The position numbers and the translations under genes were made by a program. DNA of 64,000 nt, from the NCBI RefSeq assembly GCF_017349355.1, contig NZ_JAFMPM010000006.1, positions 186,001-250,000 on the forward strand, in the 5' to 3' direction. The notes below the pieces were generated by a model, which ran no database searches, was not told where the DNA came from, and saw only the letters and a list, made by a program, of their open reading frames with translations. The DNA is from Thiothrix fructosivorans (GTDB lineage: Bacteria > Pseudomonadota > Gammaproteobacteria > Thiotrichales > Thiotrichaceae). Shown here one piece after another: positions 313-24,213 of the stretch (position 1 is its first letter; every line of letters starts with the position of its first letter).

Positions 313-411
313 AAAAAACCTCGCACTAGATTGTTTTGGGGAGTACTCAATCACTTGCGACAAGTCGCCGTAATCCGTACTCTTATCCCATTCTTTGTCT
401 GGAGCACTCAC

Positions 412-1074: not shown

Positions 1075-1391
1075 TGATACGTCACTGGACACCGAGTGAA
1101 TGTGCCGCGTATTTGAAAACACCGCAAGCACCCCGCATATTGGATGTTCGCGAAGCGTGGGAATATGATATTGCCCACCTCGAAGGTTCTACCTTGATTC
1201 CACTGGGGCAATTAGCGGCACGGTTAGCGCAACTGGATAAAACGCACGAGTGGCTGGTCGTGTGCCATCATGGTATTCGCAGCGCTCATGCGTGTTATTA
1301 TCTGGAACGAAATGGCTTTCAAGTGATCAATCTAACAGGCGGTATCAACCGCTGGGCACAAGAGATTGACCACGATATGTCTCTCTACTAA
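1074..1391 (+). CDS. rhodanese-domain protein
   Basis: A single-domain rhodanese of 105 residues, the usual length for GlpE/PspE-like sulfurtransferases. The active-site loop is CHHGIRS with the catalytic cysteine at residue 64; the family also shows ILDVRE near residue 23. Such proteins carry a persulfide on the cysteine and move sulfane sulfur between donors and acceptors in the cytoplasm. The start overlaps the methyltransferase stop (TAATG). It is followed 80 bp later by the tolC-like gene. The physiological sulfur acceptor cannot be read from the sequence. Confidence 0.88.
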   Translation: MIRHWTPSECAAYLKTPQAPRILDVREAWEYDIAHLEGSTLIPLGQLAARLAQLDKTHEWLVVCHHGIRSAHACYYLERNGFQVINLTGGINRWAQEIDHDMSLY

Positions 1392-1404
1392 CCCGAATTA
1401 GGGC

Positions 1405-1410
1405 TATAAT
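1405..1410 (+). promoter_or_regulatory. possible -10 box upstream of tolC
   Basis: A perfect TATAAT hexamer lies 62 bp upstream of the tolC-like start, in the 80-bp gap after the rhodanese gene. No convincing -35 hexamer is seen at the expected distance, so this is only a candidate promoter. Confidence 0.35.
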
Positions 1411-1471
1411 TCGCGTTTGAATAAACATGCTCCTGCATGTGGCTAACTACAAATTTTGGAACCGTTTTTTT

Positions 1472-3482: not shown

Positions 3483-3561
3483 ACCTACCCCTAAATGACA
3501 AATTTATGTAGTATCATTTGCCTACATTCCCCGACCAAACCTGAAGGCGAAATTGGATCTC

Positions 3562-5040
3562 ATGGACAACCTCCTCATCCTATTGTTAATGCTGCCCGCT
3601 GTGGGTGCGGGTGTCTTGGCATTCTTGCCGAGTGAACACCCGACATTAATCCGCAATACTGCAATTGCGGTGGCACTTTTAACACTGGTCTATGCGTTTG
3701 GCTTGACCAGCCAGATGGATTTTGCCAATCCCGCCATCCAATTACAGACTAGCGTGGTATGGAATGCGCAATTAGGCACATCCTTTAGCATCGGTGTAGA
3801 TGGGCTATCATATCCACTGATTTTACTGACCACCGTATTGGTACTAATGGCGTTGCTCGCCTCGCACATGATTACCCACCACGTTAAAGGCTATTACTTG
3901 CTCATGCTCTTGCTGGAAGCCGCCACGATGGGGGTATTCATGGCGCAAGACTGGGGCTTGTTTTACGTCTTCTGGGAACTGGTGCTGATTCCGCTGTTCT
4001 TCCTGATTGATCGCTGGGGTGGTAAGAACCGCCAAACCGCCGCGCTGAATTTCGTGTTGTATACGATGGGCGGCTCAGTGTTCATGCTGTTAGCATTGCT
4101 AGTGTTGTTTGATGCCACACCCCAGCATTCGTTTACCTTTGCCGCGATGGCAGAAGGCGCAGCAACCCTCAGTTCAGCCGAACAGGTAATGATTTTTGCG
4201 GGGCTGCTGATTGGTTTTGGGGTAAAAATGCCGCTGTTCCCGCTGCACGGCTGGCTGCCGTTGGCACACGTCGAAGCGCCCAGCCCTGTGAGTATTTTGC
4301 TCTCCGGCATTCTCTTGAAAATGGGGTCGTATGGTTTGCTACGCGCCATTGACGGTTTACCGTTGGCAGCGCAAGCGATGCAGGGTTTGCTGTTTACCTT
4401 AGGCGTGGTCGGCTTGCTGTACGGCGGCTTGCTGGCATGGCGGCAAAGCGATATGAAAAAAATGATCGCATATTCTTCCGTCAGTCACATGGGCGTGGTG
4501 CTCATTGGCATTTCCACCTTGAATGTGCACGGCATGACCGGCGCGGTGTATCAGATGGTGGCACATGGCTTGGTGGCAGGTGCAACCTTCATGCTGATCG
4601 GCTTGCTGTATGAACGTACCCATACCCGCGACATTAACGATTACGGCTCACTCATCAAAGTCACCCCGCGCTTTGCCTTTCTGATTATCCTTGCGTTTGT
4701 GGGTGGAGTAGGTTTGCCGAGTACTGCCGGATTTGTGGCGGAACTGCATGTGCTGATTGGCGGTTTCGAGCGTTGGGGCTGGTCTATCGTGCTGTTATCA
4801 CTGGGTGTATTAATCACCGCAACGTACAGCATCCGTACCATCAAGCAACTGTATACCGGCCCGGTGCGGCTGGATATGCAGCAAGTGGAAGACATGCGCC
4901 CACTGGAAATGGTGGCAGCGGGTAGCCTGATTTTCGGCACATTGTTGCTAGGCTTTTACCCCACCCCGTTGCTGGACATGATGGCTATGTCGGTGCAACA
5001 ACTCATCAGCCACGTAGCCTCAGGAGGATTGATGCCGTGA
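3562..5040 (+). CDS. NuoM-like proton-translocating antiporter subunit in DAB operon
   Basis: A 492-residue polytopic membrane protein of the proton-conducting transporter family (NuoL/M/N, MrpA/D). It keeps the hallmark charges: glutamate in the FWELVLIP motif of TM5, lysine 222 in the GVKMPLFPLH segment of TM7 and a second lysine in LLKMGSYG of TM8. These are the residues through which complex I antiporter subunits move protons. There is no complex I operon here; instead it heads a run of dabA/dabB genes, so it probably serves the inorganic-carbon pump. The start is uncertain: ATG 3562 is used, but an in-frame TTG at 3553 has a better placed AAGG. The stop overlaps the next start by 4 bases. 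Confidence 0.88.
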   Translation: MDNLLILLLMLPAVGAGVLAFLPSEHPTLIRNTAIAVALLTLVYAFGLTSQMDFANPAIQLQTSVVWNAQLGTSFSIGVDGLSYPLILLTTVLVLMALLASHMITHHVKGYYLLMLLLEAATMGVFMAQDWGLFYVFWELVLIPLFFLIDRWGGKNRQTAALNFVLYTMGGSVFMLLALLVLFDATPQHSFTFAAMAEGAATLSSAEQVMIFAGLLIGFGVKMPLFPLHGWLPLAHVEAPSPVSILLSGILLKMGSYGLLRAIDGLPLAAQAMQGLLFTLGVVGLLYGGLLAWRQSDMKKMIAYSSVSHMGVVLIGISTLNVHGMTGAVYQMVAHGLVAGATFMLIGLLYERTHTRDINDYGSLIKVTPRFAFLIILAFVGGVGLPSTAGFVAELHVLIGGFERWGWSIVLLSLGVLITATYSIRTIKQLYTGPVRLDMQQVEDMRPLEMVAAGSLIFGTLLLGFYPTPLLDMMAMSVQQLISHVASGGLMP

Positions 5041-8000
5041 CAGCAGGGGCATTCCAGCATTTGTTGGAACACTTGGCGCATGTGTTGCCCGGTCAAGCCC
5101 CGTTACGTGATTTTGTGCATCACAATACCCTGCACGGCTTACAACACCTGCCGTTTCCTGAGGCACTGCGTGCGGCGCATGACATCACGGGAGCTTACGG
5201 CTACTTACCTGCCGAGACATTTCGCGACCTGTTCCAACGCGGGCGCATCAACAGCGCCGACATCCATGCCGTCTTAACCGCGACACCACACCTACACAGT
5301 GCTGAAGAGCTGTTTCATCATGCCGCGAGTGCAACACCCATTACCCGTGGGGATGTGTATCGCACTGCCATGACTCACCCAATAACGGCGATCAGCCCCA
5401 CGCAATTCGTTTGGCAAGTGGAAGAACAGCAAATATTGGAACACCGTGGGGATACTTGGCTAGCCTGCCTGAGTGCCTTGCAACTCGGTCACCACCTACA
5501 GCATTCCGAAGACTTAGCACACGCCATTACCACTGAGACGCTCCTACCCCAACTTGCCCAACACGCCCAACAACACCTGCTGGAATTAACCGAGCATGTC
5601 GGCACGACCCTGACCTTGCGCGGTTTATTATTGGCAGTGACGGGCGAAGACATCCTCCACGACGTGCGCCCCTTGCTGCTGCGTCAAGCCGCGTCGTGGC
5701 TGGATCAAGGCATGGCGGCATGGCACAACGGCACAGCAGGTGACAGCTTTTTCGAGGCATGGCGCAATGCCAGTGCCGACGACCTCACCAGCACACTAGA
5801 AGATTTGCCAGACTGGAACGAACACCTACGCTCCCTGCCCGATACTGCCGAAGCCGCCATCATTGCCGAATTGCAACGCATCGGCATCCCCAAAGAACAC
5901 TGGGACAGCTATCTAGAACGACTCGCGCTGGAACTCCCTGGCTGGTCAGGCATGTTCCTATGGCGACACGAGCACCCCGATTACGCAGGCACAGCCACGC
6001 CCCCCGCCAATATGCTCGATTACCTCGCAGTACGCTTGAGCATGGAACACCTGTTTGCACGGCGTTTGTGCCGCCAAATCTGGCTGATGGAGGCGAACCT
6101 TGGCAATATTCGTGGACGCTTTCGCCACCACCCCAGCGAATTCTTCGTGCGCTATTACACCTTCAACCGCCGTCTGCCGGAATACTTGCTCACCACCGCG
6201 CAACAACTCATCCGCCACAGCCGCCCGCGTGTTTACGAAGAACAGCAATGGGAACAGCTTGCCCAACAGATTTGGATGTGGATGCAAAAAGCAGGCGAAG
6301 GCACGGGGTATTCGGCTTACGATCACGGCTGGCGCTTATTCCAACTCGCGCAACACTTAAAGCTGAGTACGGATACTCTGCGCAGTTTAACGCCTGAACA
6401 ACTTGCCACGATTTTTACCTGCCTCGACGCACTCGATGCTGAGCAAAGCGGCTTCCTCTGGCTGCAAGCGTATGAACGCCATTACCGCGAACAAATTTTC
6501 AACGCAATTGCCCTCAACCACGGACGCGGTACCTGGCGGCAGCGTGAGCAACGCCCACAAGCGCAAGTCGTGTTCTGTATGGACGAGCGTGAAGAAGGCA
6601 TTCGCCGCCACTTGGAAGAAGGCAATCCGCAGATTGAAACGCTGGGCGCTGCCGCCTTCTTCAATCTGCCGATGAACTGGCAAGGGCTGGACGATAAAAC
6701 GGTTACCAAACTGTGCCCTGTCCCCGTCACACCCGAACATCTGGTGCGCGAAGTGCCGGACTTGCCCGCCGACGATGCACCGCTGCTTCAGCACCAGCGC
6801 CGCGTCACGTGGCGCAAACGTTTATTTGCCGACCTTCAACACGTTACCCGCCACAACTTGCTGCTGGGAACACTCAGCCAGATGGTGCTTGCACCTGCCT
6901 CGTTGGGGATTATGTTGGGCAAATCTTACCTGCCACTCGGTTTTGGGCAATGGGTGAAAAGCCTGCGCCGTAGCGTGGATGTGCCGATTCCCACCAAGCT
7001 CGAATTTAGCGCTTTGCACGCGGATAACCGCCGTTCCAGCCAGCAAAACCAGATGGGTTTCACGGATACTGAACAAGCGGATAAAGTCGGCGGCTTCTTG
7101 CGCATGATCGGTTTGACCGACGGCTTTGCACCGCTGGTGGTGATCATGGGGCATGGCTCGACCAGCCAGAATAACCCTCATGCTGCCGCTTACGAATGCG
7201 GCGCGTGCAGCGGACGGCACAGCGGCCCGAATGCCCGCGTGTTTGCCGCTATGGCCAATCGCCCCGAAGTGCGCACCCTGTTAGCGGCGCAAGGTATCCA
7301 CGTTCCGGCGGATACGTGGTTTGTCGGGGCAGAACATGATACCTGTGACGAACACATTCCGTGGTTTGATACGCACAAAGTCCCTGCCGCTCGGCACGCC
7401 GATTTGCAGGCATTGCAAGCTGCCCTCATCACCGCCGCGCAGCATTCCGCACACGAACGTTGCCGCAAACTCGCCTCCGCACCGCGCAACCCCACGCTGC
7501 GCCAAGCCAGCCAGCACATTGCCGGACGTGCCGTCGATTACAGCCAAGCTCGCCCTGAATTGGGTCATGCCACCAATGCCTGTGCGCTGATTGGGCGACG
7601 TGCCGTGACGCGTGGCAGTTTTTTGGATCGGCGCTGCTTCCTGATTTCCTACGACTGCACCCGCGATGCCGATGGCAAGATTCTGGAAAATATTCTGTTG
7701 AATGCGGGGCCAGTGGGCGCGGGTATCAATCTGGAATACTATTTTTCCACCGTGAACAACGAGCGTTACGGCGCAGGCACAAAAGTCACCCACAACCTGA
7801 CGGGCTTGTTTGGGGTGATGGAGGGTGTGTTTAGCGATTTACGCACGGGCTTGCCTGCGCAGATGATCGAAATCCACGAAGCGATGCGCTTGCTGGTCAT
7901 TGTCGAAGCAAAAACGGCCACGGTTGGCGAGATTTATGCGCGGCAAGCGCCCTTGCAGGAATTGATCGGCGGCGGCTGGCTGATTGTGGCGGTGAAAGAC

Positions 8001-8174
8001 CCCGATTCGCGTGCCATTGAGCTGTTTGTGCCGGAACAAGGCTTTGTGCGTTGGGAGGGGGATATGCGGGAATTGCCTATCGTCAAACGGTCGGTGGATT
8101 GGTATGCGGGGGATTATGGGCATCTTGAACCGGCATTAGTGACCGCCAATGCACGCGAGGCACATCATGCCTGA
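5037..8174 (+). CDS. dabA: DabA-type inorganic carbon transporter subunit (UPF0753/DUF2309), first copy
   Basis: A 1045-residue cytoplasmic/peripheral protein of the DUF2309 family. DabA is the beta-carbonic-anhydrase-like half of the DAB bicarbonate-accumulating complex; with a DabB proton channel it drives CO2 hydration and dissolved inorganic carbon uptake using the proton gradient. The predicted zinc site is intact: Cys514 and Asp516 in FCMDERE, His706 in MGHGS and Cys721 in YECGACSG. The His-Cys spacing of 15 matches that of the characterised Halothiobacillus protein (H524, C539). GTG start at 5037 with AGGAGG at 5022-5027. It overlaps its dabB by 8 bases, as expected for a translationally coupled complex. 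It is longer than the ~830-residue DabA proteins I recall. Confidence 0.93.
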   Translation: MTAGAFQHLLEHLAHVLPGQAPLRDFVHHNTLHGLQHLPFPEALRAAHDITGAYGYLPAETFRDLFQRGRINSADIHAVLTATPHLHSAEELFHHAASATPITRGDVYRTAMTHPITAISPTQFVWQVEEQQILEHRGDTWLACLSALQLGHHLQHSEDLAHAITTETLLPQLAQHAQQHLLELTEHVGTTLTLRGLLLAVTGEDILHDVRPLLLRQAASWLDQGMAAWHNGTAGDSFFEAWRNASADDLTSTLEDLPDWNEHLRSLPDTAEAAIIAELQRIGIPKEHWDSYLERLALELPGWSGMFLWRHEHPDYAGTATPPANMLDYLAVRLSMEHLFARRLCRQIWLMEANLGNIRGRFRHHPSEFFVRYYTFNRRLPEYLLTTAQQLIRHSRPRVYEEQQWEQLAQQIWMWMQKAGEGTGYSAYDHGWRLFQLAQHLKLSTDTLRSLTPEQLATIFTCLDALDAEQSGFLWLQAYERHYREQIFNAIALNHGRGTWRQREQRPQAQVVFCMDEREEGIRRHLEEGNPQIETLGAAAFFNLPMNWQGLDDKTVTKLCPVPVTPEHLVREVPDLPADDAPLLQHQRRVTWRKRLFADLQHVTRHNLLLGTLSQMVLAPASLGIMLGKSYLPLGFGQWVKSLRRSVDVPIPTKLEFSALHADNRRSSQQNQMGFTDTEQADKVGGFLRMIGLTDGFAPLVVIMGHGSTSQNNPHAAAYECGACSGRHSGPNARVFAAMANRPEVRTLLAAQGIHVPADTWFVGAEHDTCDEHIPWFDTHKVPAARHADLQALQAALITAAQHSAHERCRKLASAPRNPTLRQASQHIAGRAVDYSQARPELGHATNACALIGRRAVTRGSFLDRRCFLISYDCTRDADGKILENILLNAGPVGAGINLEYYFSTVNNERYGAGTKVTHNLTGLFGVMEGVFSDLRTGLPAQMIEIHEAMRLLVIVEAKTATVGEIYARQAPLQELIGGGWLIVAVKDPDSRAIELFVPEQGFVRWEGDMRELPIVKRSVDWYAGDYGHLEPALVTANAREAHHA

Positions 8175-9672
8175 TTTCCCCAATAGCTTGCTCCTCCTCA
8201 TCCCCGGACTCCCCTTCCTAGCCGCCCTGTGGATCATCCTCGGTGTGATGTTCGGCTGGAATCGCGGCGAATCCGGCGAACGCGAAACCGCTCGCGTCGC
8301 CGTCACCGCCAACACGCTCAGCTTGCTCATGATGCTGGGGCTGGCGATTTACGATGTCACCCACGGCGCACCCGGTCACGTCATGCTGTTTTCGTGGTTA
8401 CGCAGCGGCGATTATCACGCCTCGGTGAGCCTGATACTCGATACCCTGAGCCTCACCTTCGGCGTGGTCATGGCAACCATTATCTTGGTGGTAACGCGCT
8501 TTTCGGTGAATTACCTGCATCGCGAAGCCGGATTTCAACGCTTTTTCATCGTCATCTCGCTATTTTCCTGCGCAATGTTGCTGATTGTGCTCTCCGGCAG
8601 TGCCTTGCTCGGCTTTATTGGCTGGGAAATGGCGGGAATCAGCTCCTACATGCTGATTGCCTACGCATGGCAGCGCGAAACCGCCGTCGAAGGGGCAACC
8701 CGTGCGTTTGTCACCAACCGTTTTGGCGATACCGGCTATTTGTTCGGCATGTTCATGGGGTTTAGCTGGCTAGGTAATGTGGAATGGAATGCGCTGTTTG
8801 CCGACAAACCGCAGATGTCTGGCATGGCGGTCGGCATTATGACGATGGGCTTCATGCTGGCAGCGCTGGTAAAATCGGCGCAATTTCCGTTCAGTGCGTG
8901 GATTACACGGGCGCTCGAAGGACCCACACCCTCCAGCGCGGTGTTTTATGGCTCAATCATGGTACACGCGGGCATTTACCTGTTGCTGCGCCTTGAACCT
9001 TTACTCAATGAAACACCGTTACTCAGCAATGTGCTGATCATAATTGGCACACTCACCGTCTTGTACGGTTGGCTGGGTGTGCAAGTGCAAACCGACATTA
9101 AAAGCTCGCTGATTTTTTCCACCCAACAGCAAACCGGGCTGATGTTGGTGGAAATCGGGCTGGGGTTTTATACCTTCGCGGCTATTCACATGGGGCTGCA
9201 CGCCATTTGGCGGGCGTACCAGTTTTTGCATTCGCCCTCCTTCCTGCAACAGACCGAGTGGCAACCCGCTAACCCCGCTCCGGCATGGCTACGGCAGCAC
9301 AAGTGGCTGTATACTGCTGCGCTCCAACGGTTCTGGCTCGTACCGCTGGAAAATTGGTTATTAGTTCGCCCCACGCAAGCGCTAGCGCATGAAGTGCAAA
9401 CCCTTGACTCGCGGGTGATTGACCGCCTTGCAGGCACAGCATCACGGGAAAATGGTTTAGGCACAGGCTCTGGCGTACTCGGTCATCTCATGCAGTGGGT
9501 AGCAGAACACTTTGAATGGCTGGAAGACCGTCTGCTATTGCAGAAAGGCGGCGGCAAGCTGGGTAAACGCTTGCAGCAACTCGGCGAATATTTGGATCTG
9601 GTAGAAGAACTCCTAGCACAGCCTCGCTACCTGATATTGTTAATAGCGGCTACCCTCGCCGTTATTTTGTAG
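8167..9672 (+). CDS. dabB: DabB-type proton-channel subunit, first copy
   Basis: A 501-residue NuoL-like membrane protein. The ATG at 8167 is preferred to 8149 because GAGG lies 6 bases upstream and the N-terminus (MPDFPNSLLLLIP) then matches the second copy (MPNVMLLLIP). Key proton-path residues are present: Glu154 in IGWEMAG, Lys236 in ALVKSAQFPFSAW, and the histidine of MVHAGIYLL. The last ~100 residues form the DabB-type tail, with an amphipathic segment (HLMQWVAEHFEWLEDRLLLQ) before a final membrane helix. DabB lets protons in and energises the DabA carbonic-anhydrase-like partner. It overlaps dabA by 8 bases and is followed after 12 bases by a second dabA. Confidence 0.92.
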   Translation: MPDFPNSLLLLIPGLPFLAALWIILGVMFGWNRGESGERETARVAVTANTLSLLMMLGLAIYDVTHGAPGHVMLFSWLRSGDYHASVSLILDTLSLTFGVVMATIILVVTRFSVNYLHREAGFQRFFIVISLFSCAMLLIVLSGSALLGFIGWEMAGISSYMLIAYAWQRETAVEGATRAFVTNRFGDTGYLFGMFMGFSWLGNVEWNALFADKPQMSGMAVGIMTMGFMLAALVKSAQFPFSAWITRALEGPTPSSAVFYGSIMVHAGIYLLLRLEPLLNETPLLSNVLIIIGTLTVLYGWLGVQVQTDIKSSLIFSTQQQTGLMLVEIGLGFYTFAAIHMGLHAIWRAYQFLHSPSFLQQTEWQPANPAPAWLRQHKWLYTAALQRFWLVPLENWLLVRPTQALAHEVQTLDSRVIDRLAGTASRENGLGTGSGVLGHLMQWVAEHFEWLEDRLLLQKGGGKLGKRLQQLGEYLDLVEELLAQPRYLILLIAATLAVIL

Positions 9673-9684
9673 GAAAACGATGAC

Positions 9685-12600
9685 ATGACCGACCACAGTC
9701 AGGCACATAACGAACAACGCGCGTATTTGCAGGAAGCCATCGCGGGCTTGGATGCGGTCTTACCGATCCAAGCCCCGTTGCAGGATTTCGTGCATTTTAA
9801 CCCGCTGATGCATTACGAACACCTACCGTTTGCGGAAGCCTTACGCGCTGCCCACGCCCATAGTGGCTCATTGGGCTATTTACCCAACAGCGATTATCGA
9901 CGCTTTTTTCGGGAAGGGCGCATTAATCGCCACGATATTTTCAGCATACTCGCCAGCGATGCCGAGCAAGCCGCCGACCGTGAGATTTACCTCACCGCGC
10001 TTGCCAACAACATCAAAGCGATTACCTTTCAGCAAATGCGCTGGCAAGTAGAAGAAAACGCCGCATTGGAACGCTTTCAAGCCGATGTTGCCTACGAACA
10101 ACGCGATAAATTGCTCGAAGCTGCCGGACAAAACGAAGCCACTGCCATCCGCGCCTTGTGGGAAACGTGTTTGCAAAAGCTGGAACTGCACTACGATTTA
10201 CCGCACCCCGAAGCCTTGCTGAACTTGCGCCTCACCGACATTAACGGCATCTGGGATCAAATCAAGCAACAAGGGCAAATCGGCGCGAGCATTCCCGATG
10301 CGGAAAGTTATATTCACGCCGAAAGCCGCGAATTGCTACACACCTTGCTGGATCAAGTCGGCGACACCCTGACCTTACGCAGCCTGTTGCTCAAACTGGT
10401 CAATGTGGATGTGATGGAACAACTCCTGCCGCTGCTCAATCGCCATCTGGCAAGCTGGCTGGATCAAGGCATCGCCTCCCTCCGTTCCCTGAGCGCAGTC
10501 GAAGGGAACACACAAGGCTTCTACACCTACTGGAAGTCAGCCACCCTGCAAGACTTGACCCTCACGCTCGAAGGCATGGATGATTGGGACGATTACCTCG
10601 AATCCCTGCATGACGACCCGCTGGAAACCATTCTGCAAGAATTGATGCGTAGCGGGATCGACAAAGACCGCTGGGGTGGTTACTTGCGCGTCTTAGCACT
10701 GGAGTTACCGGGCTGGTCGGGCATGTTCAACTGGCGCTCGAAAAACCCTGATTATTACGGCATCAACACCCCCGTCAGCATGGTCGATTACCTCGCGGTC
10801 AGGTTGGTCTTGGAACACTTGTATTGCCGCCAATACACCAGCGAACATTGGAAAATCAATGCCAGCGTTAGTAACCTACGTGGCTATTTCCACCAGAATC
10901 AGGATGAATTTTTTGTCCGTTACCACGCTTACAACACCACCTTGCCGGAATTCCTGCAACAGCTTGCTCAACAATTCTTAAGCAGTGAAGAAGACATCCT
11001 ACCGCAAGACTGGCATCAACTTGCCCACCAAATCCTAACGTGGAATCTTGCCCCCGAAACGGTCATCCCCGTTGGCACCGACATTTACCGCAAAGCATGG
11101 CGTTTATTCCACCTCGCACAACATCTGGCAATGGATGCCGCCGCATTTGCGCAACTCTCACCGGAACGCATCCAGCGCCTGCTGGCCATTCTGGAAGAAC
11201 TCGACGACCCCAATACCAGCGGCTATATCTGGTTACAAGCGTATGAACACCATTATCAGGAAGAAATCTTCAGCGCAGTGCTGAACAAGCATAAAGAAAC
11301 CCCGCTTTCCACCCCGCCCACGGCGCAACTGATTTTCTGCATGGATGACCGCGAAGAAAGCGTGCGTCGCCATCTGGAAGAAATCGCCCCCGATGTGGAA
11401 ACCTTCGGCGCGGCGGGCGTGTTTGGGCTACCCAATAACTGGCGCGGACTGGATACACCCCGCCCCCTCAAACTGGCACAACCCGTGGTCACGGCAGTCC
11501 ACGAACTCCGCGAAATAGCGGATACCGCAGCGCAAGCCCGCTTGCCAGCCCACCAACGCCACCAGCGTTTCCTCAACGGCTTGAGCAAGCTGAAAAACCA
11601 CCGGATGCGCCACAGCGTATTCGGCACAACACTGGCGTTACCGTTGCTCGCGCCGTTTGCGTTGCTGGAACTGTTAGGGCGCGGCTTGCTACCTGCCACT
11701 TACCAGCGTTTCATGAACAAGGTACAACGCCGCGCCAGCTTGCCACTCAAAACCCGTGTTGCCTACACCGCCAGCGAGGTGTTGGAATGCCCCAGCAAAG
11801 AACACAACCAGATGGGCTTGAGTGCGGCAGAAAAAGTTGCCAAAGTGGCTGCGTTCCTGAAACTCACCGGCTTCACCAGCGGCTTTGCACCGTTGGTGGT
11901 GTTAATGGCGCACCGTTCGCGCCACTTGAATAACCCGCATATCCTCGGCTACGGCTGTGGCGCGTGCAGTGGACGTTTCGGAGGGCCGAATGCCCGCGCT
12001 TTTGTGGGCATGTGCAATGAAGCGGAAGTGCGTACCCAGCTTGCCACCCAACACGGCATTCACATTCCTGACGGCACGTGGTTTATTGCCAGCGAACACG
12101 ACACCACCAGCGATGACATCGACTGGTTTGATACCGATTTAATCCCTGCCAGCCATCAGGCAATCGTCAAGCGCGTGCAACAAGCTACCGAACAAGCCGC
12201 ACGTCAATCGTCATTGGAGCGTTGCCGCAAATTTGCGTCTGCCAGCCCGCACCTCACCCCGCGCAGTGCCAAGCGCCATGTAGAAGGACGGGCTGCTTCT
12301 CCCGATCAAGTCCGCGCAGAATTGGGGCATCAAGGCTGCGCCGTCGCTTTCATCGGGCGACGCAATCTGAGTAAAGGCGTTTTCTGGGATCGGCGTTCCT
12401 TCCTGATTTCCTACGACCCACACAACGACCCCGATGGCAAGCTGCTGGAAGCGCAATTGAACGGCAATGGCGTGGTCGGCGTGGGCATTCAGATGGATTA
12501 CTACTTTTCGCGAATGCAAAGCGGCTACTTCGGTTCAGGCAGCAAAGCCACCCACAACCTCACGGGTTTATTCGGAGTAATGGAAGGCGGCGCGAGCGAT

Positions 12601-12939
12601 TTGCGCACCGGGCTTGCCCAGCAAATGGTGGAATTGCACGAACCCATGCGCTTGCTGGCGATTGCCGAAGCGGACATTGACACGCTGGTAGCGATTTACC
12701 AACGCCATGAGTATTTGCGGCGCTTACTGGATAACGGCTGGGTGTTACTGGCAGCGAAACCACCGGATCGCAATGAAATCCACGTTTTCCAACCCGGTAA
12801 GGGCTTTGTGCAATGGCGCGGTTCGGTACATCAATTGCCGCAAGTGCAGCATTCCCGCGACTGGTACGCGGGGCATCATGGGCATTTACCGCCTGCGGCA
12901 GTGCGGGGTTCTTCGGCGCTGGAGGTGAACCATGCCTAA
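9685..12939 (+). CDS. dabA: DabA-type inorganic carbon transporter subunit, second copy
   Basis: A 1084-residue DUF2309 protein, clearly paralogous to the one at 5037 but well diverged. The zinc-site residues are Cys552 and Asp554 (FCMDDREE), His743 (MAHRS) and Cys758 (GYGCGACSG), with the same 15-residue His-Cys spacing. Shared blocks include LTLRSLL, LPGWSGMF, DRRSFLISYD and THNLTGLFGVMEG. The copy differs around the histidine (MAHRSRHL versus MGHGSTSQ), which could tune activity or substrate. The start has AGGA 11 bases upstream. It overlaps the second dabB by 8 bases exactly as in the first pair, so the two dabAB pairs arose by duplication or by joining of two complete cassettes. Confidence 0.93.
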   Translation: MTDHSQAHNEQRAYLQEAIAGLDAVLPIQAPLQDFVHFNPLMHYEHLPFAEALRAAHAHSGSLGYLPNSDYRRFFREGRINRHDIFSILASDAEQAADREIYLTALANNIKAITFQQMRWQVEENAALERFQADVAYEQRDKLLEAAGQNEATAIRALWETCLQKLELHYDLPHPEALLNLRLTDINGIWDQIKQQGQIGASIPDAESYIHAESRELLHTLLDQVGDTLTLRSLLLKLVNVDVMEQLLPLLNRHLASWLDQGIASLRSLSAVEGNTQGFYTYWKSATLQDLTLTLEGMDDWDDYLESLHDDPLETILQELMRSGIDKDRWGGYLRVLALELPGWSGMFNWRSKNPDYYGINTPVSMVDYLAVRLVLEHLYCRQYTSEHWKINASVSNLRGYFHQNQDEFFVRYHAYNTTLPEFLQQLAQQFLSSEEDILPQDWHQLAHQILTWNLAPETVIPVGTDIYRKAWRLFHLAQHLAMDAAAFAQLSPERIQRLLAILEELDDPNTSGYIWLQAYEHHYQEEIFSAVLNKHKETPLSTPPTAQLIFCMDDREESVRRHLEEIAPDVETFGAAGVFGLPNNWRGLDTPRPLKLAQPVVTAVHELREIADTAAQARLPAHQRHQRFLNGLSKLKNHRMRHSVFGTTLALPLLAPFALLELLGRGLLPATYQRFMNKVQRRASLPLKTRVAYTASEVLECPSKEHNQMGLSAAEKVAKVAAFLKLTGFTSGFAPLVVLMAHRSRHLNNPHILGYGCGACSGRFGGPNARAFVGMCNEAEVRTQLATQHGIHIPDGTWFIASEHDTTSDDIDWFDTDLIPASHQAIVKRVQQATEQAARQSSLERCRKFASASPHLTPRSAKRHVEGRAASPDQVRAELGHQGCAVAFIGRRNLSKGVFWDRRSFLISYDPHNDPDGKLLEAQLNGNGVVGVGIQMDYYFSRMQSGYFGSGSKATHNLTGLFGVMEGGASDLRTGLAQQMVELHEPMRLLAIAEADIDTLVAIYQRHEYLRRLLDNGWVLLAAKPPDRNEIHVFQPGKGFVQWRGSVHQLPQVQHSRDWYAGHHGHLPPAAVRGSSALEVNHA

Positions 12940-14491
12940 TGTCATGCTGTTATTGATTCCTGCCCTGCCCTTGCTGGCAGCTTTATTGCTGGCAATGGAT
13001 CGGCTGTTTCGCTGGAGTCGCGGGGATGATGGCGAACGTTTTGCCGCTGGTTTATTGCAAGTCGCCAGCCTGTTAAGCCTGTTACTGGTGCTGTGGGCGG
13101 ATGTGCATTACTGGCTAAACGGTAGCCGTGACGTGGTGGTGTTGCCGTGGTTGCACAGCGGTATCTACAACGCCAGCATTAGCTTTACACTGGATCATCT
13201 GAGCTTGAGCATGGCAACGCTGGTGGGGGTGATCACGTTGTTAGTGACACGCTTTTCGGTAAATTATTTGCATCGGGAAGCAGGCTTCCAACGCTTTTTT
13301 ATGGTAATGGGCATTTTCACTGCTGCCATGTATTTGATTGCGCTGTCCGGCAGTGCCTTGCTGGCGTTTGTGGGCTGGGAATTGGCGGGGGCAAGTTCGT
13401 ATTTGCTGATCGGCTATAACTGGCAAAGCCGCACCGCCACCACGAATGCAACGCGTGCGTTTGTCACCAATCGGATGGGTGATGCAGGGTTTATGCTCGG
13501 TATGTTCATGGCGTTTTCGCTGTTTCGTACCACGGAATGGGCGGTGGTGCTGACGACACCCGCTGACAAATCCAGCTTGCTGGTCGGCGTGGCGGCACTC
13601 GGCTTTATGACCGCTGCCTTGGTGAAATCGGCGCAATTCCCGTTTTCGGCGTGGATTACCCGTGCATTAGAAGGCCCCACACCGTCCAGCACCGTGTTTT
13701 ACGGCTCGCTGATGGTACACGCGGGCATCTTCTTATTACTGCGTATTCATCCGCTGCTGGAGCAAGCCCCCGTCTTGCAAGCCTTATTGCTGAGTGTGGG
13801 TATTCTCACCGTGCTCTATGGCTGGTTGGGAGGCTTGGCGCAAACCGACATTAAAACCTCGCTGATGTTTTCAACCTTGGCGCAAACGGGTTTGATGTTG
13901 GTCGAAATTGCGCTCGGTTGGTACACGCTGGCGTTGCTGCATTTGCTGTGGCACGCGGTGTGGCGAGCGTATCAGTTTTTGCATTCGCCTTCCTTCGCGC
14001 TGCATACGCAATGGCAAGCTGCCCCGCCTGCGCCGCTGTGGTTGCGCAAACAGCGTTGGTTGCACAATGCAGCCTTGCAACGCTTCTGGCTTGACCCGTT
14101 GGCGGATTGGTTGCTAATCAAACCAACCTTGGCGATTTCACAGGAAACCCAAGTGTTCGATGGGCAGATTCTCGATAAACTCAGTGGCACACCCAGCCCG
14201 CACAGCAGCATGGCAACGCTTGCCGATATGCAGGCGATGCAGCAAGGGCGAATGCGGGTGGAAAGCAGCATCGGTGTCGGTTCGGGTTTCTTGGGCAAGC
14301 TGATGCAATGGGTGGCGGAACACTTGGAATGGTTTGAACACCGTTTGCTCTTGCAAAGTGGCGGCGGCAAAGCCAAAACCACCTTGGACACATTGGGGCG
14401 GTACTTGGATAGGATCGAGCGCCTGCTGACCCAACCACGTTATCTGGTGTTGCTGATTTTTGCAACGCTGGTTGTCATTTTCCGGGGGTAG
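12932..14491 (+). CDS. dabB: DabB-type proton-channel subunit, second copy
   Basis: A 519-residue NuoL-like protein, paralogue of the gene at 8167. GGAGG at about 12921 supports the ATG at 12932. It keeps the TM5 glutamate (VGWELAGASSY), Lys232 in ALVKSAQFPFSAW and the MVHAGIFLLLR histidine. The C-terminal tail again has an amphipathic helix (LMQWVAEHLEWFEHRLLLQ) and a last hydrophobic segment; a short Met/Gln-rich insert (LADMQAMQQGRM) distinguishes it from the first copy. Its partner is most likely the DabA encoded just upstream, but cross-pairing with the first DabA is possible. Confidence 0.92.
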   Translation: MPNVMLLLIPALPLLAALLLAMDRLFRWSRGDDGERFAAGLLQVASLLSLLLVLWADVHYWLNGSRDVVVLPWLHSGIYNASISFTLDHLSLSMATLVGVITLLVTRFSVNYLHREAGFQRFFMVMGIFTAAMYLIALSGSALLAFVGWELAGASSYLLIGYNWQSRTATTNATRAFVTNRMGDAGFMLGMFMAFSLFRTTEWAVVLTTPADKSSLLVGVAALGFMTAALVKSAQFPFSAWITRALEGPTPSSTVFYGSLMVHAGIFLLLRIHPLLEQAPVLQALLLSVGILTVLYGWLGGLAQTDIKTSLMFSTLAQTGLMLVEIALGWYTLALLHLLWHAVWRAYQFLHSPSFALHTQWQAAPPAPLWLRKQRWLHNAALQRFWLDPLADWLLIKPTLAISQETQVFDGQILDKLSGTPSPHSSMATLADMQAMQQGRMRVESSIGVGSGFLGKLMQWVAEHLEWFEHRLLLQSGGGKAKTTLDTLGRYLDRIERLLTQPRYLVLLIFATLVVIFRG

Positions 14492-14498
14492 TCTACAC

Positions 14499-16034
14499 AT
14501 GATTTTTTCTGAATTAATGGCAACCAAGCCCTTGCTGACCATGTTGCAATTGCTGCCGCTTGTAACGGGATTGGTGCTGATCAAAGTGCGCGGTCATGCC
14601 GCGATTGCGCTAGCGGGCATTATGTCGCTGGCGCAAATGTTTCTGGCGATGGGTTTGTATCAGCAATTCGATATTCACCAACCCGCTGGGGTGATGCAGT
14701 TTGCGGAAAATGTGCCGTTGTGGGGTGCATTCCACTACCACGCGGCGGTGGATGGTATCGGGGTCATGTTTGTCTTGCTCACTAGCTTGATCAGCTTGCT
14801 GAGTGTGGCGTTTGTGCTGGTGCGGCGCTTACACGAAAGCTCAATTCTGGCGGTGATGATGATGATTCAAGCGGTCGTCACCAGCCAATTCGTGACGGTG
14901 GATCTATTATGGTTTACCACCATGTCGTTTCTGGAAGTGGTCTTGGTGGGCTATTTGACGAAGCGCTGGTCGACCTTCCACGACATTCAACCGACACTCG
15001 CCCGTTACCTGCAATTCATGGTGGTGGGCTTGCTGCTGATGGTGTTTGGAACGCTGGTACTGGGCTGGAATTACGCCGATGCGAACGCAGGGCGCTGGAG
15101 CTTTAGCCTGTACGAGTTATCGCAACTGGGTTTCGGTAAGCATGACATGGTAGGCACGCTGGTGTTCTTCGCGCTGTTCTACGCGTTGGCGATACGGATT
15201 CCGATATTCCCGTTTCACGGCTGGCTGCCTGCGTTTATGTTGCATGGCAATGTGGCAGTTGCACCGATTTATTTGCTGGGCTTGAAAGTGGGGGTGTACG
15301 GCTTGCTGCGTTTTGTGTTCCCCATCGTACCTCATGCGGTGTGGGAATGGCATTGGGTGGCAACAGTGTTTGCATCCACCGGGGTATTTTATGCAGCCTT
15401 TTTGGCAATGCGCCAACGCACGTTGCGGGAATTGCTGGCGTTTGCGGTGATCAGCCACACAGGGATTTTGACGATTGGTTTGTTCAGTTTGCACCGTATG
15501 GCGTTTGAAGGCGCGGTCTTACTGGCGTTGAACTTTGGCTTGGCGATTACGGGCTTGCTTCTAATGACGGGCATGGTGTGGCAACGCACGCGCACCACGC
15601 GGCTGCACAAATTGGGCGGCATGTTGGACTACATCCCCATTGTCGGCTTGGCGTTTTTGGTGGCAGGTCTGGCGGTCGTGGGAATGCCGGGAACACCGGG
15701 GTTTGATGCGGTGCATTTCGTGTTGGAAGGTTCGATCAAAAGCTTTGGTGCAGTCGTCACGGTGGCGGCGGCATTGGGTAACTTAGTCGCTGCGGGTTTC
15801 TTATTACGCGCTTTCCAACAAGCCTTTTTAGCAACACCGGGGATGGATACCAGCCGCTGGGATACCAGCCCGACCTATCCGGCAGAAACCTTGATGGCGG
15901 GTATTGTGATTGTGGTGACAGTGGTGGCAGGCTTTTATTCCGCCCCGTGGATTGCGTTAATTGGCGAGCCAATTAGCGGATTGGCGGCATTGTTTGCTGA
16001 ATATACCGGCGCAGTACACGGAGGGGGTCACTGA
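14499..16034 (+). CDS. divergent NuoM/NuoN-like membrane subunit in DAB operon
   Basis: A 511-residue proton-translocating-transporter-family protein. ATG 14499 is preferred to 14460 because GGGGG at 14484-14488 precedes it and the upstream extension lies inside dabB. The family TM7 motif is present (AIRIPIFPFHGWLP), but the normally invariant lysine is arginine (Arg233). In TM5 the usual FWE is replaced by MSFLE, so the acidic residue is displaced by a few positions. The TM8 lysine (LLGLKVGVYGLLRF) is kept. These changes suggest altered or weakened proton conduction, or a structural role. It lies 7 bases after dabB and overlaps the next antiporter-like gene by one base. Confidence 0.85.
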   Translation: MIFSELMATKPLLTMLQLLPLVTGLVLIKVRGHAAIALAGIMSLAQMFLAMGLYQQFDIHQPAGVMQFAENVPLWGAFHYHAAVDGIGVMFVLLTSLISLLSVAFVLVRRLHESSILAVMMMIQAVVTSQFVTVDLLWFTTMSFLEVVLVGYLTKRWSTFHDIQPTLARYLQFMVVGLLLMVFGTLVLGWNYADANAGRWSFSLYELSQLGFGKHDMVGTLVFFALFYALAIRIPIFPFHGWLPAFMLHGNVAVAPIYLLGLKVGVYGLLRFVFPIVPHAVWEWHWVATVFASTGVFYAAFLAMRQRTLRELLAFAVISHTGILTIGLFSLHRMAFEGAVLLALNFGLAITGLLLMTGMVWQRTRTTRLHKLGGMLDYIPIVGLAFLVAGLAVVGMPGTPGFDAVHFVLEGSIKSFGAVVTVAAALGNLVAAGFLLRAFQQAFLATPGMDTSRWDTSPTYPAETLMAGIVIVVTVVAGFYSAPWIALIGEPISGLAALFAEYTGAVHGGGH

Positions 16035-17512
16035 TGGATGGTTTAACGAGTATGAATTTTCCGTGGTTAAGCTTGCTGATTTTGATGTTGCCGTTGGGCG
16101 CAATTTTAACCGCCCTAATGCCGGGTAAAGAAGCACGCTTGGCGGCATTAACCACAGCGGTGCTAACGCTGGGCGTGACGCTGGTGATTGTGGCAGGCTT
16201 TGACCCACAACAAACCGGCTTCCAATTTGTGGAAAAAACACCGTGGATGCCGAGTTTGGGTATCCACTATTTCATGGGCGTGGATGGCTTGTCGGTGCTG
16301 TTTTTACCGTTTACCGCGCTGCTATTTATTGGGGTGATTTTGGCATCGTGGAACGCGATTCGCACCATGCGCCAGTTTTATTTTGCGCTGCTATTAATGC
16401 TGGAATGCACCATCATGGGCATTTTCACGTCGCTGGATACGATTTTGTTTTTCCTGTTCTGGGAAATGACCTTGCTGCCGCTGTTCTTCCTGCTCAGTTT
16501 GTGGGGCAGCGGAGCTAATCGCCGCTATGCAGGGGTGAAATACAGCTTGTTTATGCTGGCGGGGGGCTTGCCGATTTTGGTCGGTTTTGTGGTGTTGGCG
16601 CTGAATAATTCCACGGAGCTGAGTTTTTCCTACACGGATTTGCTGGCAGGTAGCCACAGTAAAGACGTTCAAATCGTGGTGTTCTTCCTGTTATTGGTCG
16701 GGTTTGGGATCAAAGTGCCGTTGTTTCCGCTGCATACGTGGTTACCCGTGGTGGCGCAAGAAGGGCCTGCGACCACGGTAGCGTTACTGACGGGCTTGAA
16801 AGTGGGCGCGTATGGTTTATTACGCTTTGGCTTGCCACTCGTGCCGGAAGCGGCACTGGAATTCCGCTGGATTTTGGTGGGTTTGGGGATGATTGGCGTG
16901 CTGTATGGCGCAGTCGCCGCGTTAAGCCAAACCAGTTTGCGGCGCATGTTGGCGTTTTCCTCGTTAAGCCACGTCGGCTTGGTGGTGCTGGGCATTGCTT
17001 CGTTTAGCCCGCAGGGAATGCAGGGCGCGATCTTCCAATTGCTGAACTTCACCCTGATTGCGGGTGGGTTGTTCCTGATCACGGGATTCTTGCATCAGCG
17101 CACGGGTTCGACGGAATTATTGAGTTTGGGCGGGGTGGCGAAGTCGATGCCGTTGCTAGCATCGCTGTTCTTTTTCCTCGGCTTGGCGGGGATCGGGATG
17201 CCTGCCACCAGCGGTTTTCCGGCGGAATTTTTGCTGATCGTGAGCATTTTGGAAGTGCATACCGGCGCAGGGTTGGTAGTATTGTTTGTGGTCATATTGG
17301 GCGCGGCGTATTTCCTGAATTTCTACCGCAAGGCATTTTTGGGTGAAGCGCGTCACGCTATTATCCGTGATGCACCTGATTTGAAGCGGCGCGAACTCGG
17401 TGTCCTGCTGCTGATCGTGATACTGGTGCTGGTCTTCGGCTTCTACCCACAGGGGATTTTGGATATAACCGAAACCAGCAGCCAGTATTGGGTGAGCTTG
17501 CTGCTGCCTTAA
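16034..17512 (+). CDS. NuoM-like proton-translocating antiporter subunit, last gene of DAB operon
   Basis: A 492-residue NuoM-like protein with canonical charges: the TM5 glutamate in LFWEMTLLP, Lys227 in FGIKVPLFPLHTW and the TM8 lysine in GLKVGAYGLL. The start overlaps the previous stop (TGATGG) and has GAGGGGG upstream. It closes a seven-gene run in which no intergenic gap exceeds 12 bases. As with the other antiporter-like subunits here, the missing complex I peripheral arm and the dab context suggest it belongs to the carbon-uptake machine or to an Mrp-like partner complex. A 28-bp stretch of its 3' coding region recurs downstream at 18867. Confidence 0.88.
   Translation: MDGLTSMNFPWLSLLILMLPLGAILTALMPGKEARLAALTTAVLTLGVTLVIVAGFDPQQTGFQFVEKTPWMPSLGIHYFMGVDGLSVLFLPFTALLFIGVILASWNAIRTMRQFYFALLLMLECTIMGIFTSLDTILFFLFWEMTLLPLFFLLSLWGSGANRRYAGVKYSLFMLAGGLPILVGFVVLALNNSTELSFSYTDLLAGSHSKDVQIVVFFLLLVGFGIKVPLFPLHTWLPVVAQEGPATTVALLTGLKVGAYGLLRFGLPLVPEAALEFRWILVGLGMIGVLYGAVAALSQTSLRRMLAFSSLSHVGLVVLGIASFSPQGMQGAIFQLLNFTLIAGGLFLITGFLHQRTGSTELLSLGGVAKSMPLLASLFFFLGLAGIGMPATSGFPAEFLLIVSILEVHTGAGLVVLFVVILGAAYFLNFYRKAFLGEARHAIIRDAPDLKRRELGVLLLIVILVLVFGFYPQGILDITETSSQYWVSLLLP
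17427..17454 (+). repeat. 28-bp direct repeat, copy 1 (inside antiporter gene)
   Basis: TGCTGGTCTTCGGC followed by TTCTACCCACAGGG; identical to 18867-18894 except for one base. It encodes the VFGFYPQG segment near the C-terminus of the antiporter-like protein. Confidence 0.8.
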
Positions 17513-17542: not shown

Positions 17543-18786
17543 TCAGGGTGTTGCCACTGTGGGCAACGCTTGGGCATAAAGCGTCAGGCACAGCTCCAGA
17601 TCGCTGACCGATTCGTACTGGGGAAGTTTGCCTGACAGTTTTTCGCTTTCACGCAGGATCATTTCCACGCCAAAACCGCGCCTGTCCATCAGGTAACTTT
17701 TGCCTAAGTCAACCTCATCCACTGGATAGTAACGGGAAAATAAGCTGGCGAGGATTTCGTTGCGTGGCACGGACAAACGACTCATGGATTCCAACGACAA
17801 GGTGTTGGGTAATGCGCCCGGTGAATGGATTTCCAGCCGATCGGCAAACATAAACAAGCGGATACGTTGCGCGTGCAAGGAATAATCCCGATGCGCCACT
17901 GCATTCACAAGCGCTTCAAACACCGCTCCCAAATGGTATTGGGGATAATCAACCCTGCCTAACGGTTTGCGAGCGGCAGTAGTCATATTACGGCGCACAA
18001 ATGAAAAGCATCCAAGATTTGCCGATCCAGTGGGCCACGGATTTCCTGCGCATCGATCTGTTCGTTAGGGTCATTGCGCACCCCAGTATGGGCGACAACC
18101 AGAATTTCGGCGTTGCGTAACCATTTTGCAGGGTCTAGCGTACAGAGTAACACCCCAGCTATGGTGGGCAGGGCTTCACCATCACGGTTATCAATCAGGT
18201 GTAGCCGTGCCAGTTGCGTGATGATGTCGCCTTGATCGGGCTTGATGAAACGGCGTAACAACAACGCATCGAGGTCGTCAAAATGAGCCTTGGGAACAAC
18301 CTGCTCTTCAAAGCGCACAATCCGCGCCTGACTACGCTGTTGAAACAAGCGTGCCAGCATATCCGGCTGCATTTCGCGTTTGGCGTGCCCAATGCGTTTG
18401 AAATAGCCATTAGCACTTTGGTGAACCCACAAACTACGCGGCACTTCTGCAACAATCACGGCTTGTAATTGTCCACTTGCATCCAGTAATTCGAGGTGAT
18501 GAGTGACAACTTCCAGTGGTGGTTTAATACGGTCGGTGCAAATCGCCGTCAGCCATGTTTCCACCCGATCCAGATGTTCAGCGGGAATCCCCGTGACGGT
18601 GCGCGTTTTATCATCGACCCCAAAGACCATCAAGCCACCGCTGGCGTTACCCATAGCTGCCAATTCATCGGATAAACCATCAGGATGCGGTTCGAGGTTC
18701 TTACCGTCTCTGAGGGTAATCTGTTTGAGTTCCAACGTGGAGTCTTCGCCCAAACGAATGCGTTGCATGAGGTGCGTGAGGTTCAT
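17543..18786 (-). pseudogene. AlbA/Schlafen-type ATP-binding transcriptional regulator, frameshifted
   Basis: Two overlapping minus-strand frames make one gene: 18786-17983 encodes an N-terminal AlbA_2/Schlafen-like nucleic-acid-binding domain (EDSTLELKQ, MGNASGGLMVFGVDD), and 17998-17543 encodes the C-terminal GHKL-ATPase-like part (FEALVNAVAHRDYS). The break lies near 17990-18003: DAF-HL in one frame must continue as FVRRNMTTAARKPLG in the other, and a single missing base next to a TTTT run explains it. Whole length would be about 413 residues, normal for these putative DNA-binding helicase-like regulators. It could be a true pseudogene or an assembly error. It stands alone, convergent with the DAB operon. 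Confidence 0.8.
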
Positions 18787-18866
18787 GAATCATCTCCAAA
18801 CAGGCTGCTTTGCCCGATTGTAGCATCCTCTCGTGGGTCGGGTTTGTTAGTGTTAGATATACCAGT

Positions 18867-18894
18867 TGCTGGTCTTCGGCCTCTACCCACAGGG
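18867..18894 (+). repeat. 28-bp direct repeat, copy 2 (relic)
   Basis: Matches 17427-17454 with one mismatch (C for T at the fifteenth base). In the same reading frame it spells LVFGLYPQG, so it looks like a relic of the 3' end of an antiporter-type gene, now in noncoding DNA between the AlbA-type gene and tnpB. Sequence on either side does not match. Confidence 0.75.
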
Positions 18895-18923
18895 TTTGAA
18901 GCAGCTACCACAAAACCCACCCA

Positions 18924-18956
18924 AACTTCTCCAATCTTTGTCATTTTGGAGAAGTT
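18924..18956. repeat. perfect 11-bp inverted repeat (hairpin)
   Basis: AACTTCTCCAA and TTGGAGAAGTT enclose an 11-base loop. It sits 91 bp before the tnpB start, where the left-end subterminal hairpin of an IS200/IS605-type element would be expected. No T-run follows, so it is a poor intrinsic terminator. Confidence 0.7.
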
Positions 18957-19047
18957 GTAAGGCACAGACTACCGTTCATCTGTCGATAGCAACATCAAAA
19001 ACACCCACCCCTAGACACAAAATCTGCTGTATTGCATCCTATCCCTC

Positions 19048-20280: not shown

Positions 20281-20304
20281 GTTTGTATAAGTTTAAAGGA
20301 ACGG

Positions 20305-20787: not shown

Positions 20788-20802
20788 ATTATTATTTACC
20801 AA

Positions 20803-24201: not shown

Positions 24202-24213
24202 ACATTACCTCTA

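Follow-up and report, generated by a model that had tools for sequence, protein, structure and literature searches.

A five-gene DabA-DabB unit with three NuoM-like subunits and its doubled form in Thiothrix

Introduction

DABs gather CO2 by a proton-driven route and have drawn interest for the engineering of CO2 concentration; the mechanism and stoichiometry by which they couple CO2 hydration to proton flow are an open question. In the cyanobacterial complexes NDH-1MS and NDH-1MS', a CO2-hydrating cap sits on a membrane chain of the NuoL/NuoM type. These complexes are driven by ferredoxin oxidation (PMC13144422). For DAB2 of Halothiobacillus neapolitanus, the same source reports that replacement of the finger residue Glu444 by Ala or Gln abolishes activity. 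Operons in which dabA (ybcC) precedes dabB (nuoL) feature in the COGNAT paper of 2017, which names NuoM (COG1008) and SulP genes as frequent neighbours, the function of ybcC-nuoL operons being unknown at that time (PMC5700660). Here we describe a locus of this dabA-first order in which the pump genes are doubled and flanked by three further antiporter-type genes.

Results

The window, a 64,000-nucleotide stretch of the Thiothrix fructosivorans genome, carries seven tandem genes on the + strand, M1-A1-B1-A2-B2-X-M2, with ORFs for DabA and DabB in two copies each and for three NuoM-like proteins. M1 (3553-5040), a NuoM-like antiporter-type subunit (PF00361, 249 bits), starts with TTG at 3553 and has an in-frame ATG 9 bases downstream at 3562. 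It is followed by A1, the first dabA copy, for a CO2-hydrase-like subunit (5037-8174; PF10070 DabA, 799 bits), the NuoL-like first dabB copy B1 (8149-9672; PF00361 and PF00662), the second dabA copy A2 (9685-12939; PF10070 DabA, 676 bits) and the second dabB copy B2 (12932-14491; PF00361 and PF00662), which shares the residue pattern of B1. The divergent NuoM-like subunit X (14460-16034; PF00361, 110 bits) and the NuoM-like M2 (16034-17512; PF00361, 203 bits) complete the run. An earlier note made from the sequence had described seven genes with no gap above 12 bp, and the ORFs bear this out: the sole intergenic gap, of 12 bp, separates B1 from A2, and every other pair of neighbours overlaps. 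The host is a sulfur-oxidising Thiothrix-like bacterium.

The five antiporter-type subunits (PF00361 in M1, B1, B2, X and M2) stand, as the note had also claimed, without a complex I peripheral arm, none being detected by Pfam in the flanking stretches 331-3025 and 17543-26554. With neither a NuoH core nor peripheral-arm genes in or beside it, the operon is not a complex I locus. NuoJ, NuoK and NuoA were not found in it either, and its ORFs and Pfam matches include no MrpC, E, F or G, so it does not encode the MrpA-G set. Elsewhere in the host genome, three PF00361 genes belong to a separate complex I cluster (C6:1737238-1741685), and two PF00361 domains lie within one frame (C6:1420314-1422437). 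No Rfam family matched anywhere in the window at gathering scores. A scan upstream of M1 returned no promoter or terminator, which carries little weight as the chance expectation was 0.5 and 1.1.

The M1-A2-B2-X-M2 set is kept in 16/16 Thiothrix genomes, and 10 of the 16 also have A1-B1; because of this conservation, the Thiothrix arrangement is not due to chance. In the other six genomes A1-B1 is absent from the locus. Outside Thiothrix, the order M1-dabA-dabB-X-M2 recurs among Gammaproteobacteria and in two other members of the Pseudomonadota. These five genes, M1-A-B-X-M2, are the basic unit, built around a single pump in related bacteria, and the doubling is a Thiothrix elaboration of it.

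Among 129 DabA genes examined (DabA ORFs below 500 aa were excluded, as were a number of split or short DabA from the search of the taxonomic class), 38 of the 42 in which dabA is followed by dabB have all three extra gene kinds in the same gene run, versus 0/76 loci of the opposite, canonical order with any of M1, X or M2 nearby. The 42 rows comprise 23 Thiothrix genes and 19 other loci; the 76 are those left after one row with TM5 Glu (L025), a Thiothrix B1 at a stretch end that had been misplaced among them, was dropped from the canonical set. The four dabA-first exceptions are two loci truncated where a stretch or contig ends (L018, L108), a DabB-X fusion locus (L069) and an outlier (L093). 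From a phylum-wide DabA search three further loci outside the taxonomic class were read, two of which (L149, L150) carry the five-gene unit, the other (L151) being dabA alone. Solitary dabA genes of the dabA-first type, with no other unit gene in the stretch read, occur at L109, L110, L132, L134, L135 and L151, and L092 holds M1-A only; for L110, L132, L134 and L135 the membrane module lies elsewhere in the same genome. The module M1-B-X-M2 is also found without dabA. In G079 this was read from the locus itself, and for G422 and G403 it was taken from match coordinates, the accompanying dabA, of A2 type, lying on a different contig. RuBisCO is present in 18/24 genomes with a dabA-first-type DabA, 17/20 with canonical DabA and 6/18 without any DabA; the genomes of the latter two sets were taken in listing order.

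M1, X and M2 each form a single clade (SH-aLRT 100, 100 and 97 on 26, 29 and 27 rows, respectively). The nearest solved chains to M1 are complex I NuoM, and the full NuoM proton-path set (E142, K225, K256, K302, H312, H338 and E397) is retained in it and in 35/35 rows of the M1 family. M2, which also has NuoM relatives in the PDB, keeps E144, K227, K256 and E398, the Lys and His positions being taken by R303 and F339. X, whose PDB relatives are likewise NuoM, lacks both the TM5 Glu and the TM12 Glu and has Arg for the TM7 Lys; in three other genomes, all of one family, its homologue is fused to DabB. All three proteins also match Mrp subunits.

The zinc-site residues reported in the note occupy exactly the positions given there, C514, D516, H706 and C721 in A1 and C552, D554, H743 and C758 in A2, and the dyad arginine is kept as R518 and R556. 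The zinc Cys2His site and the Asp-Arg dyad are found in 129/129 DabA rows, A1 and A2 included, and an adjacent NuoL-like DabB partner is present; by these sequence features both pairs fall in the broad DAB/DAC family. DabA2 (9rd0) was the only PDB sequence relative found for A1. The finger is a different matter: the column of Glu444 holds Glu in 76/76 canonical DabA versus 0/42 of the dabA-first class (Asp in 3), a contrast that, like those in DabB below, sets one clade against the rest and so amounts to roughly a single evolutionary event instead of 42. Neither Thiothrix protein has a DAB2-type finger glutamate, the column being occupied by Met in A1 and Pro in A2, and the 33-residue finger core of A1 contains no Asp or Glu. 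Three further alignment methods left these counts unchanged (0/42), and HMMER pairing of A1 with DabA2 placed a different, likewise non-acidic residue in the column. One small automatic alignment put Glu there in 5/5 A2-type DabA and 0/17 others of the class; we kept the reading of the first alignment and the three further methods over this one, which disagrees for A2-type rows. The finger is poorly conserved in sequence. In A2-type DabA an acidic residue does occur at a later finger position (20/20) and might substitute for Glu444. At E 0.001, PF10070 was the sole Pfam match of A1 and A2, so neither resembles a cyanobacterial CupA-type cap by this measure. The predicted structure of A1 was poor throughout (mean pLDDT 52.7, pTM 0.40) and was left unused because of these low scores.

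Both DabB carry the TM5 Glu and TM7 Lys that had been ascribed to them (B1 E160 and K242; B2 E150 and K232). The TM5 Glu is not, as the note assumed, a normal DabB trait: it occurs in 42/42 DabB of the dabA-first class versus 0/76 canonical ones. The corresponding DAB2 residue is Ile151, and the I151E replacement is described as halving the growth yield (PMC13144422). A text pattern applied to 15 further DabB, outside all other counts, found the TM5 Glu in 12, and the other 3 did not fit the pattern. With numbering tied to DabB2 itself via a canonical DabB, Tyr replaces H260 and Arg replaces K347 in 42/42 dabA-first rows (Y267 and R355 in B1, Y257 and R345 in B2), which are therefore not of DAB2 type at these positions; S256, K310 and H343 are kept in all 42. 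By hydropathy only, one hydrophobic helix follows TM11 in 37/42 dabA-first DabB, versus four in 67/76 canonical ones. B1 and B2 likewise have one by this measure, and not the TM12-15 of DAB2; TM12-14 are probably missing from dabA-first DabB. The B1 model (mean pLDDT 70.9) is unreliable at 394-494 (pLDDT <50), and the best 50 of its 528 Foldseek matches are NuoL-type chains with TM ~0.6, 9rd0_B not being among those 50.

In the trees A1 and A2 separate before the genus, and A2-type DabA is present in 16/16 Thiothrix genomes and is retained by related genera as a gene of its own. The split of B1 from B2 lies on the Thiothrix stem. In three genomes (G006, G010, G011) A1 and B1 are separated by 0.7 to 4.8 kb. 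The earlier suggestion of shared membrane modules finds some support in sequence, as DabA variants may use one module in G400 and G406. In Thiothrix a single M1/X/M2 set probably serves both pairs, which would be alternative forms and not two separate pumps.

Discussion

With moderate confidence, and judging from sequence, we favour an expanded DAB whose proton path would now run through dedicated subunits, arranged as a complex-I-like chain that carries DabA. M1, DabB, X and M2 would form a membrane chain like that of complex I minus its electron-transfer parts, on which DabA, the beta-carbonic-anhydrase-like zinc subunit, would be seated through DabB and would convert CO2 to bicarbonate only during inward proton flow. 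DabB itself may lack a complete channel and act as a coupling piece, its TM5 Glu-TM7 Lys pair connecting DabA to M1 and M2 as the proton conductors; X would be a connector. More than one proton could thereby be spent per CO2, which would permit a steeper bicarbonate gradient or operation when the proton-motive force is lower. That the subunits would assemble as one complex, the larger assembly envisaged in the note, is suggested by the DabB-X fusion, the co-conservation of the genes and the membrane modules devoid of dabA. More tentatively, the unit may represent a distinct mechanistic class, with proton translocation outside DabA-DabB, more than one proton per CO2 and exchangeable DabA heads on one chain.

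M1, X and M2 could instead constitute an independent cation or proton antiporter beside ordinary DAB pumps, sharing their transcript for the sole reason that CO2 uptake perturbs pH or sodium. Canonical two-subunit DABs function alone (PMC13144422), and the NuoM-like proteins match Mrp subunits as well, yet we regard this as rather unlikely: three genomes carry a DabB-X fusion, dabA-first DabA and DabB lack features on which DAB2 depends, the M1, X and M2 kinds accompany none of the 76 canonical loci, and the operon leaves no room for further Mrp subunits. Quite improbable, in our estimate, is a sodium- or bicarbonate-coupled version whose chain moves Na+ or HCO3- instead of protons. MpsAB has been proposed as a Na+/HCO3- symporter (cited in PMC13144422) and the subunits are relatives of Mrp and complex I, but M1 retains the whole NuoM residue set checked and DabA its carbonic-anhydrase-like zinc site.

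In some hosts the system might run in reverse, bicarbonate dehydration and CO2 loss driving proton or sodium export, or the module might serve pH balance. Complex I relatives pump outward, and six of the 24 genomes with dabA-first-type DabA lack RuBisCO; we nevertheless regard this reading as very improbable, RuBisCO being present in the other 18. In DAB2, the reverse reaction is described as blocked (PMC13144422). As for the additional Thiothrix pair, the absence of A1-B1 from six of 16 loci and its interruption in three genomes would fit a redundant duplication in the course of being lost; this is unlikely, though it carries some weight, for the A1/A2 split is older than the genus, both proteins keep all zinc-site residues, and the A2 type survives on its own in related genera.

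In these loci the zinc head and the proton path are set apart by natural variation. This makes the coupling question testable, since one head family can be compared in forms that have or lack a finger acid of their own and that come with one antiporter-like subunit or with four. Among described systems, the unit resembles DAB2/DAC of H. neapolitanus (DabA2-DabB2, PDB 9rd0) in PF10070, the zinc Cys2His site, the Asp-Arg dyad and the NuoL-family DabB. It differs in its three extra subunits and dabA-first order, in lacking the finger Glu444, in having the TM5 Glu, Tyr for H260 and Arg for K347, and probably in the loss of TM12-14. The clade C ybcC-nuoL operons likewise place dabA ahead of a nuoL homologue and have NuoM genes nearby, so the note's view of the arrangement as undescribed is only partly right; the accessible part of that account, however, deals in gene families and does not describe subunit number, fusion, residue changes or doubling (PMC5700660). 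In the literature searched, whose coverage of earlier DAB gene layouts is incomplete, we found no account of the five-gene unit and its residue changes. With NDH-1MS and NDH-1MS' the unit would share a CO2-hydrating head on a NuoL/NuoM-type chain, although the Pfam matches of A1 and A2 are confined to PF10070 and the operon has no complex I core. In the respiratory complex I membrane arm, NuoM is the nearest relative for M1, M2 and X, and NuoL for DabB, but the operon is devoid of NuoH, J, K, A and a peripheral arm, and the host has its own complex I cluster elsewhere. Mrp Na+/H+ antiporters share the PF00361 subunits, but MrpC, E, F and G are absent from the operon and DabA is present instead. 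If the proposed chain is real, DABs would be linked in working principle with complex I as well as with the CO2-uptake complexes of cyanobacteria.

Operon structure and genomic surroundings

The earlier note's proposal of a seven-gene operon was borne out by ORF calling and Pfam: M1, A1, B1, A2, B2, X and M2 lie on the forward strand (3553-17512) with intergenic spacing of at most 12 bp. A1 and A2, the two DabA copies, match PF10070, and PF00361 is matched by the two DabB copies (B1 and B2) and the three NuoM-like subunits (M1, X and M2). By Pfam, the upstream genes (PCMT, rhodanese and TolC) and the downstream ones (an AlbA_2/HATPase pair on the opposite strand, then a TnpB-type gene) appear unrelated to it. 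The AlbA_2 and HATPase_c_4 domains fall in two overlapping reverse-strand ORFs (17543-18786), perhaps a single broken gene; the IS605 OrfB/TnpB-type gene directly after the operon (19048-20280) carries a Cas12f1-like TNB domain. The window also holds three tandem type II/IV secretion ATPases (21899-25248, reverse strand; PilT-like in our own reading) and two possible defence loci, namely, a SEFIR/TIR-domain protein (38214-40922) and a DUF2357/PD-(D/E)XK nuclease accompanied, two genes further, by a C5-cytosine methylase (56212-61488).

Elsewhere, the host genome encodes a complex I cluster with three PF00361 genes and an Mrp-type gene with two PF00361 domains. The start of the complex I NuoM gene (locus L111, 12871-13200; contig C6, ~1738870-1739200) is seemingly split over two frames in the assembly, through either sequencing error or damage. 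In locus L112 (1427-9447), an ORF of 1048 aa that matches PF00361 twice adjoins what by eye seem to be NuoD/NuoC-like and small Mrp-like genes; together these may encode a group 4 hydrogenase-like or Mbh-like complex.

Distribution of the five-gene unit

DabA is present in all 16 Thiothrix genomes and in 96 of the 370 genomes of a class-wide sample. The operon is a real, conserved expanded DAB, although the dabA-dabB-dabA-dabB order emphasized in the earlier note holds for only part of its range: neighbourhoods read in Thiothrix contain M1-A2-B2-X-M2 in 16/16 genomes, with A1-B1 inserted between M1 and A2 in ten (missing in G003, G004, G005, G007, G009 and G014), and a complete single unit occurs in 15 non-Thiothrix genomes of the class sample. 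The A1-B1 doubling is a secondary feature of Thiothrix. In G006 (locus L018, 7719-12555), two ORFs separate A1 from B1: one of 1339 aa, in which we read a P-loop and HEAT-like repeats by eye rather than by tool, and one resembling DUF559 nucleases; additional DNA lies at this position also in G010 (4.1 kb) and G011 (0.7 kb).

Gene order was classed for 129 DabA genes with a length of 500 aa or more, including those from the window, Thiothrix and locus L009, with most full-length class loci fetched. The dabA gene precedes dabB in 42 (23 of them from Thiothrix), with M1, X and M2 all in the same gene run in 38. The exceptions are L018 and L108, truncated where the stretch or contig stops, L069, with a B-X fusion, and L093, with a distant PF00361 gene and a SulP transporter upstream. 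In contrast, none of the 76 canonical, dabB-first loci (after removal of one misfiled row; ten further DabA were unclassed) contains M1, X or M2. At the family level, nine further loci carry the complete unit and one more, at a contig end, lacks only part of M2; among three loci read outside the class, L149 and L150 have the unit and L151 has dabA alone.

Of the genomes with dabA-first-type DabA, 18 of 24 encode RuBisCO, and so do the two Thiothrix genomes given; in sets taken in listing order rather than at random, it occurs in 17 of 20 genomes with canonical DabA and 6 of 18 without DabA (one a weak match). The six dabA-first-type genomes lacking it (G352, G380, G075, G193, G062 and G360) all branch away from the main group of 42 rows in the DabA tree, as does G134, which has RuBisCO. 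This distribution fits carbon uptake for autotrophy, though not universally.

Subunit linkage and phylogeny

DabB and X form one protein of 1037-1045 aa in three genomes of one family. An M1-B-X-M2 module without dabA is present in G079 (locus read) and in G422 and G403 (from match coordinates), all with an A2-type dabA on a different contig. G400 and G406, in each of which one dabA-first-class DabB was found, carry a complete five-gene unit plus an A2-type dabA, divergent and adjoining in the former and on a different contig in the latter.

A quick maximum-likelihood tree resolves each of M1, M2 and X as one clade, X grouping with M2 and M1 with complex I NuoM. The tree of both DabA copies suggested in the earlier note, a quick one with some long branches, places the A1/A2 split before the genus Thiothrix; the B1/B2 split maps to the Thiothrix stem. 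An unusual DabA with Asp in the finger (locus L038, genome G038), 2.4 kb upstream of NuoN-, NuoL- and NuoM-like genes, occupies the basal position in the dabA-first clade (support 84).

By NuoM position names, M1 keeps all seven positions checked in 35/35 sequences. In M2, TM5 Glu, TM7 Lys and TM8 Lys are present in 32/32 and TM12 Glu in 31/32 (the remaining row having a gap); two further checked positions carry Arg and Phe. In X, both TM5 Glu and TM12 Glu are missing and TM7 Lys is replaced by Arg in 35/35.

Comparison with known systems

The COGNAT paper reports dabA upstream of a nuoL homologue, often together with genes for SulP and NuoM, and put these forward as novel energy-converting complexes without a known function (PMC5700660). 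The arrangement called undescribed in the earlier note is therefore partly anticipated, although the literature searches, across listed titles and abstracts and selected passages of mainly open-access papers, yielded no account of a five-gene DAB. The passages covered from two DIC-uptake papers (PMC10880623, PMC12628692) do not mention the unit, and a term search of the Thiothrix genome paper, which reports RuBisCO types and complex I, gave nothing on the window operon (PMC8570282).

In the solved DAB2 pump, DabA2 has a zinc site (C351, H524, C539) with a D353-R355 dyad and a finger Glu444 at which Ala or Gln abolishes activity; in DabB2, S256, H260, K310, S316, H339, H343 and K347 matter, and Ile151 occupies the position of the NuoL TM5 Glu, where substituted Glu halves growth yield (PMC13144422). 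The same study describes the outer half-channel of standalone DabB2 as made from TM12-13 and the DabA finger, and the NuoL TM5 Glu-TM7 Lys as parts of ion pairs near the membrane-subunit interface (PMC13144422).

The zinc site and Asp-Arg dyad are kept in 129/129 DabA rows. The Glu444 column holds Glu in 76/76 canonical DabA and in 0/42 of the dabA-first class (Asp in three), and three slower alignment methods gave identical counts, A2-type rows included; one smaller alignment instead sets a Glu of A2-type DabA in this column. The finger core has an acidic residue in 20/20 A2-type rows and in 0/10 A1-type Thiothrix rows. In DabB (DabB2 numbering, set by aligning one canonical DabB to 9rd0_B, its I149, H259 and K346 pairing with I151, H260 and K347), TM5 Glu is present in 42/42 dabA-first and 0/76 canonical sequences, and H260 is Tyr and K347 Arg in all 42. 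After TM11, a single hydrophobic helix follows in 37/42 dabA-first DabB, four others having no helix there and one having two; canonical DabB has four such helices in 67/76. These contrasts set one clade against the rest and so represent about one evolutionary event.

Compared with DAB2, dabA-first DabA retains the zinc site and dyad, and DabA and DabB together seem to be without the finger Glu and the TM12-13 part of the outer half-channel. DabB nevertheless carries the TM5 Glu-TM7 Lys elements. Read most simply, it would now act as the coupling piece, with M1 and M2 conducting protons and X between, so that the sequences make a case for an altered proton path in dabA-first DAB.
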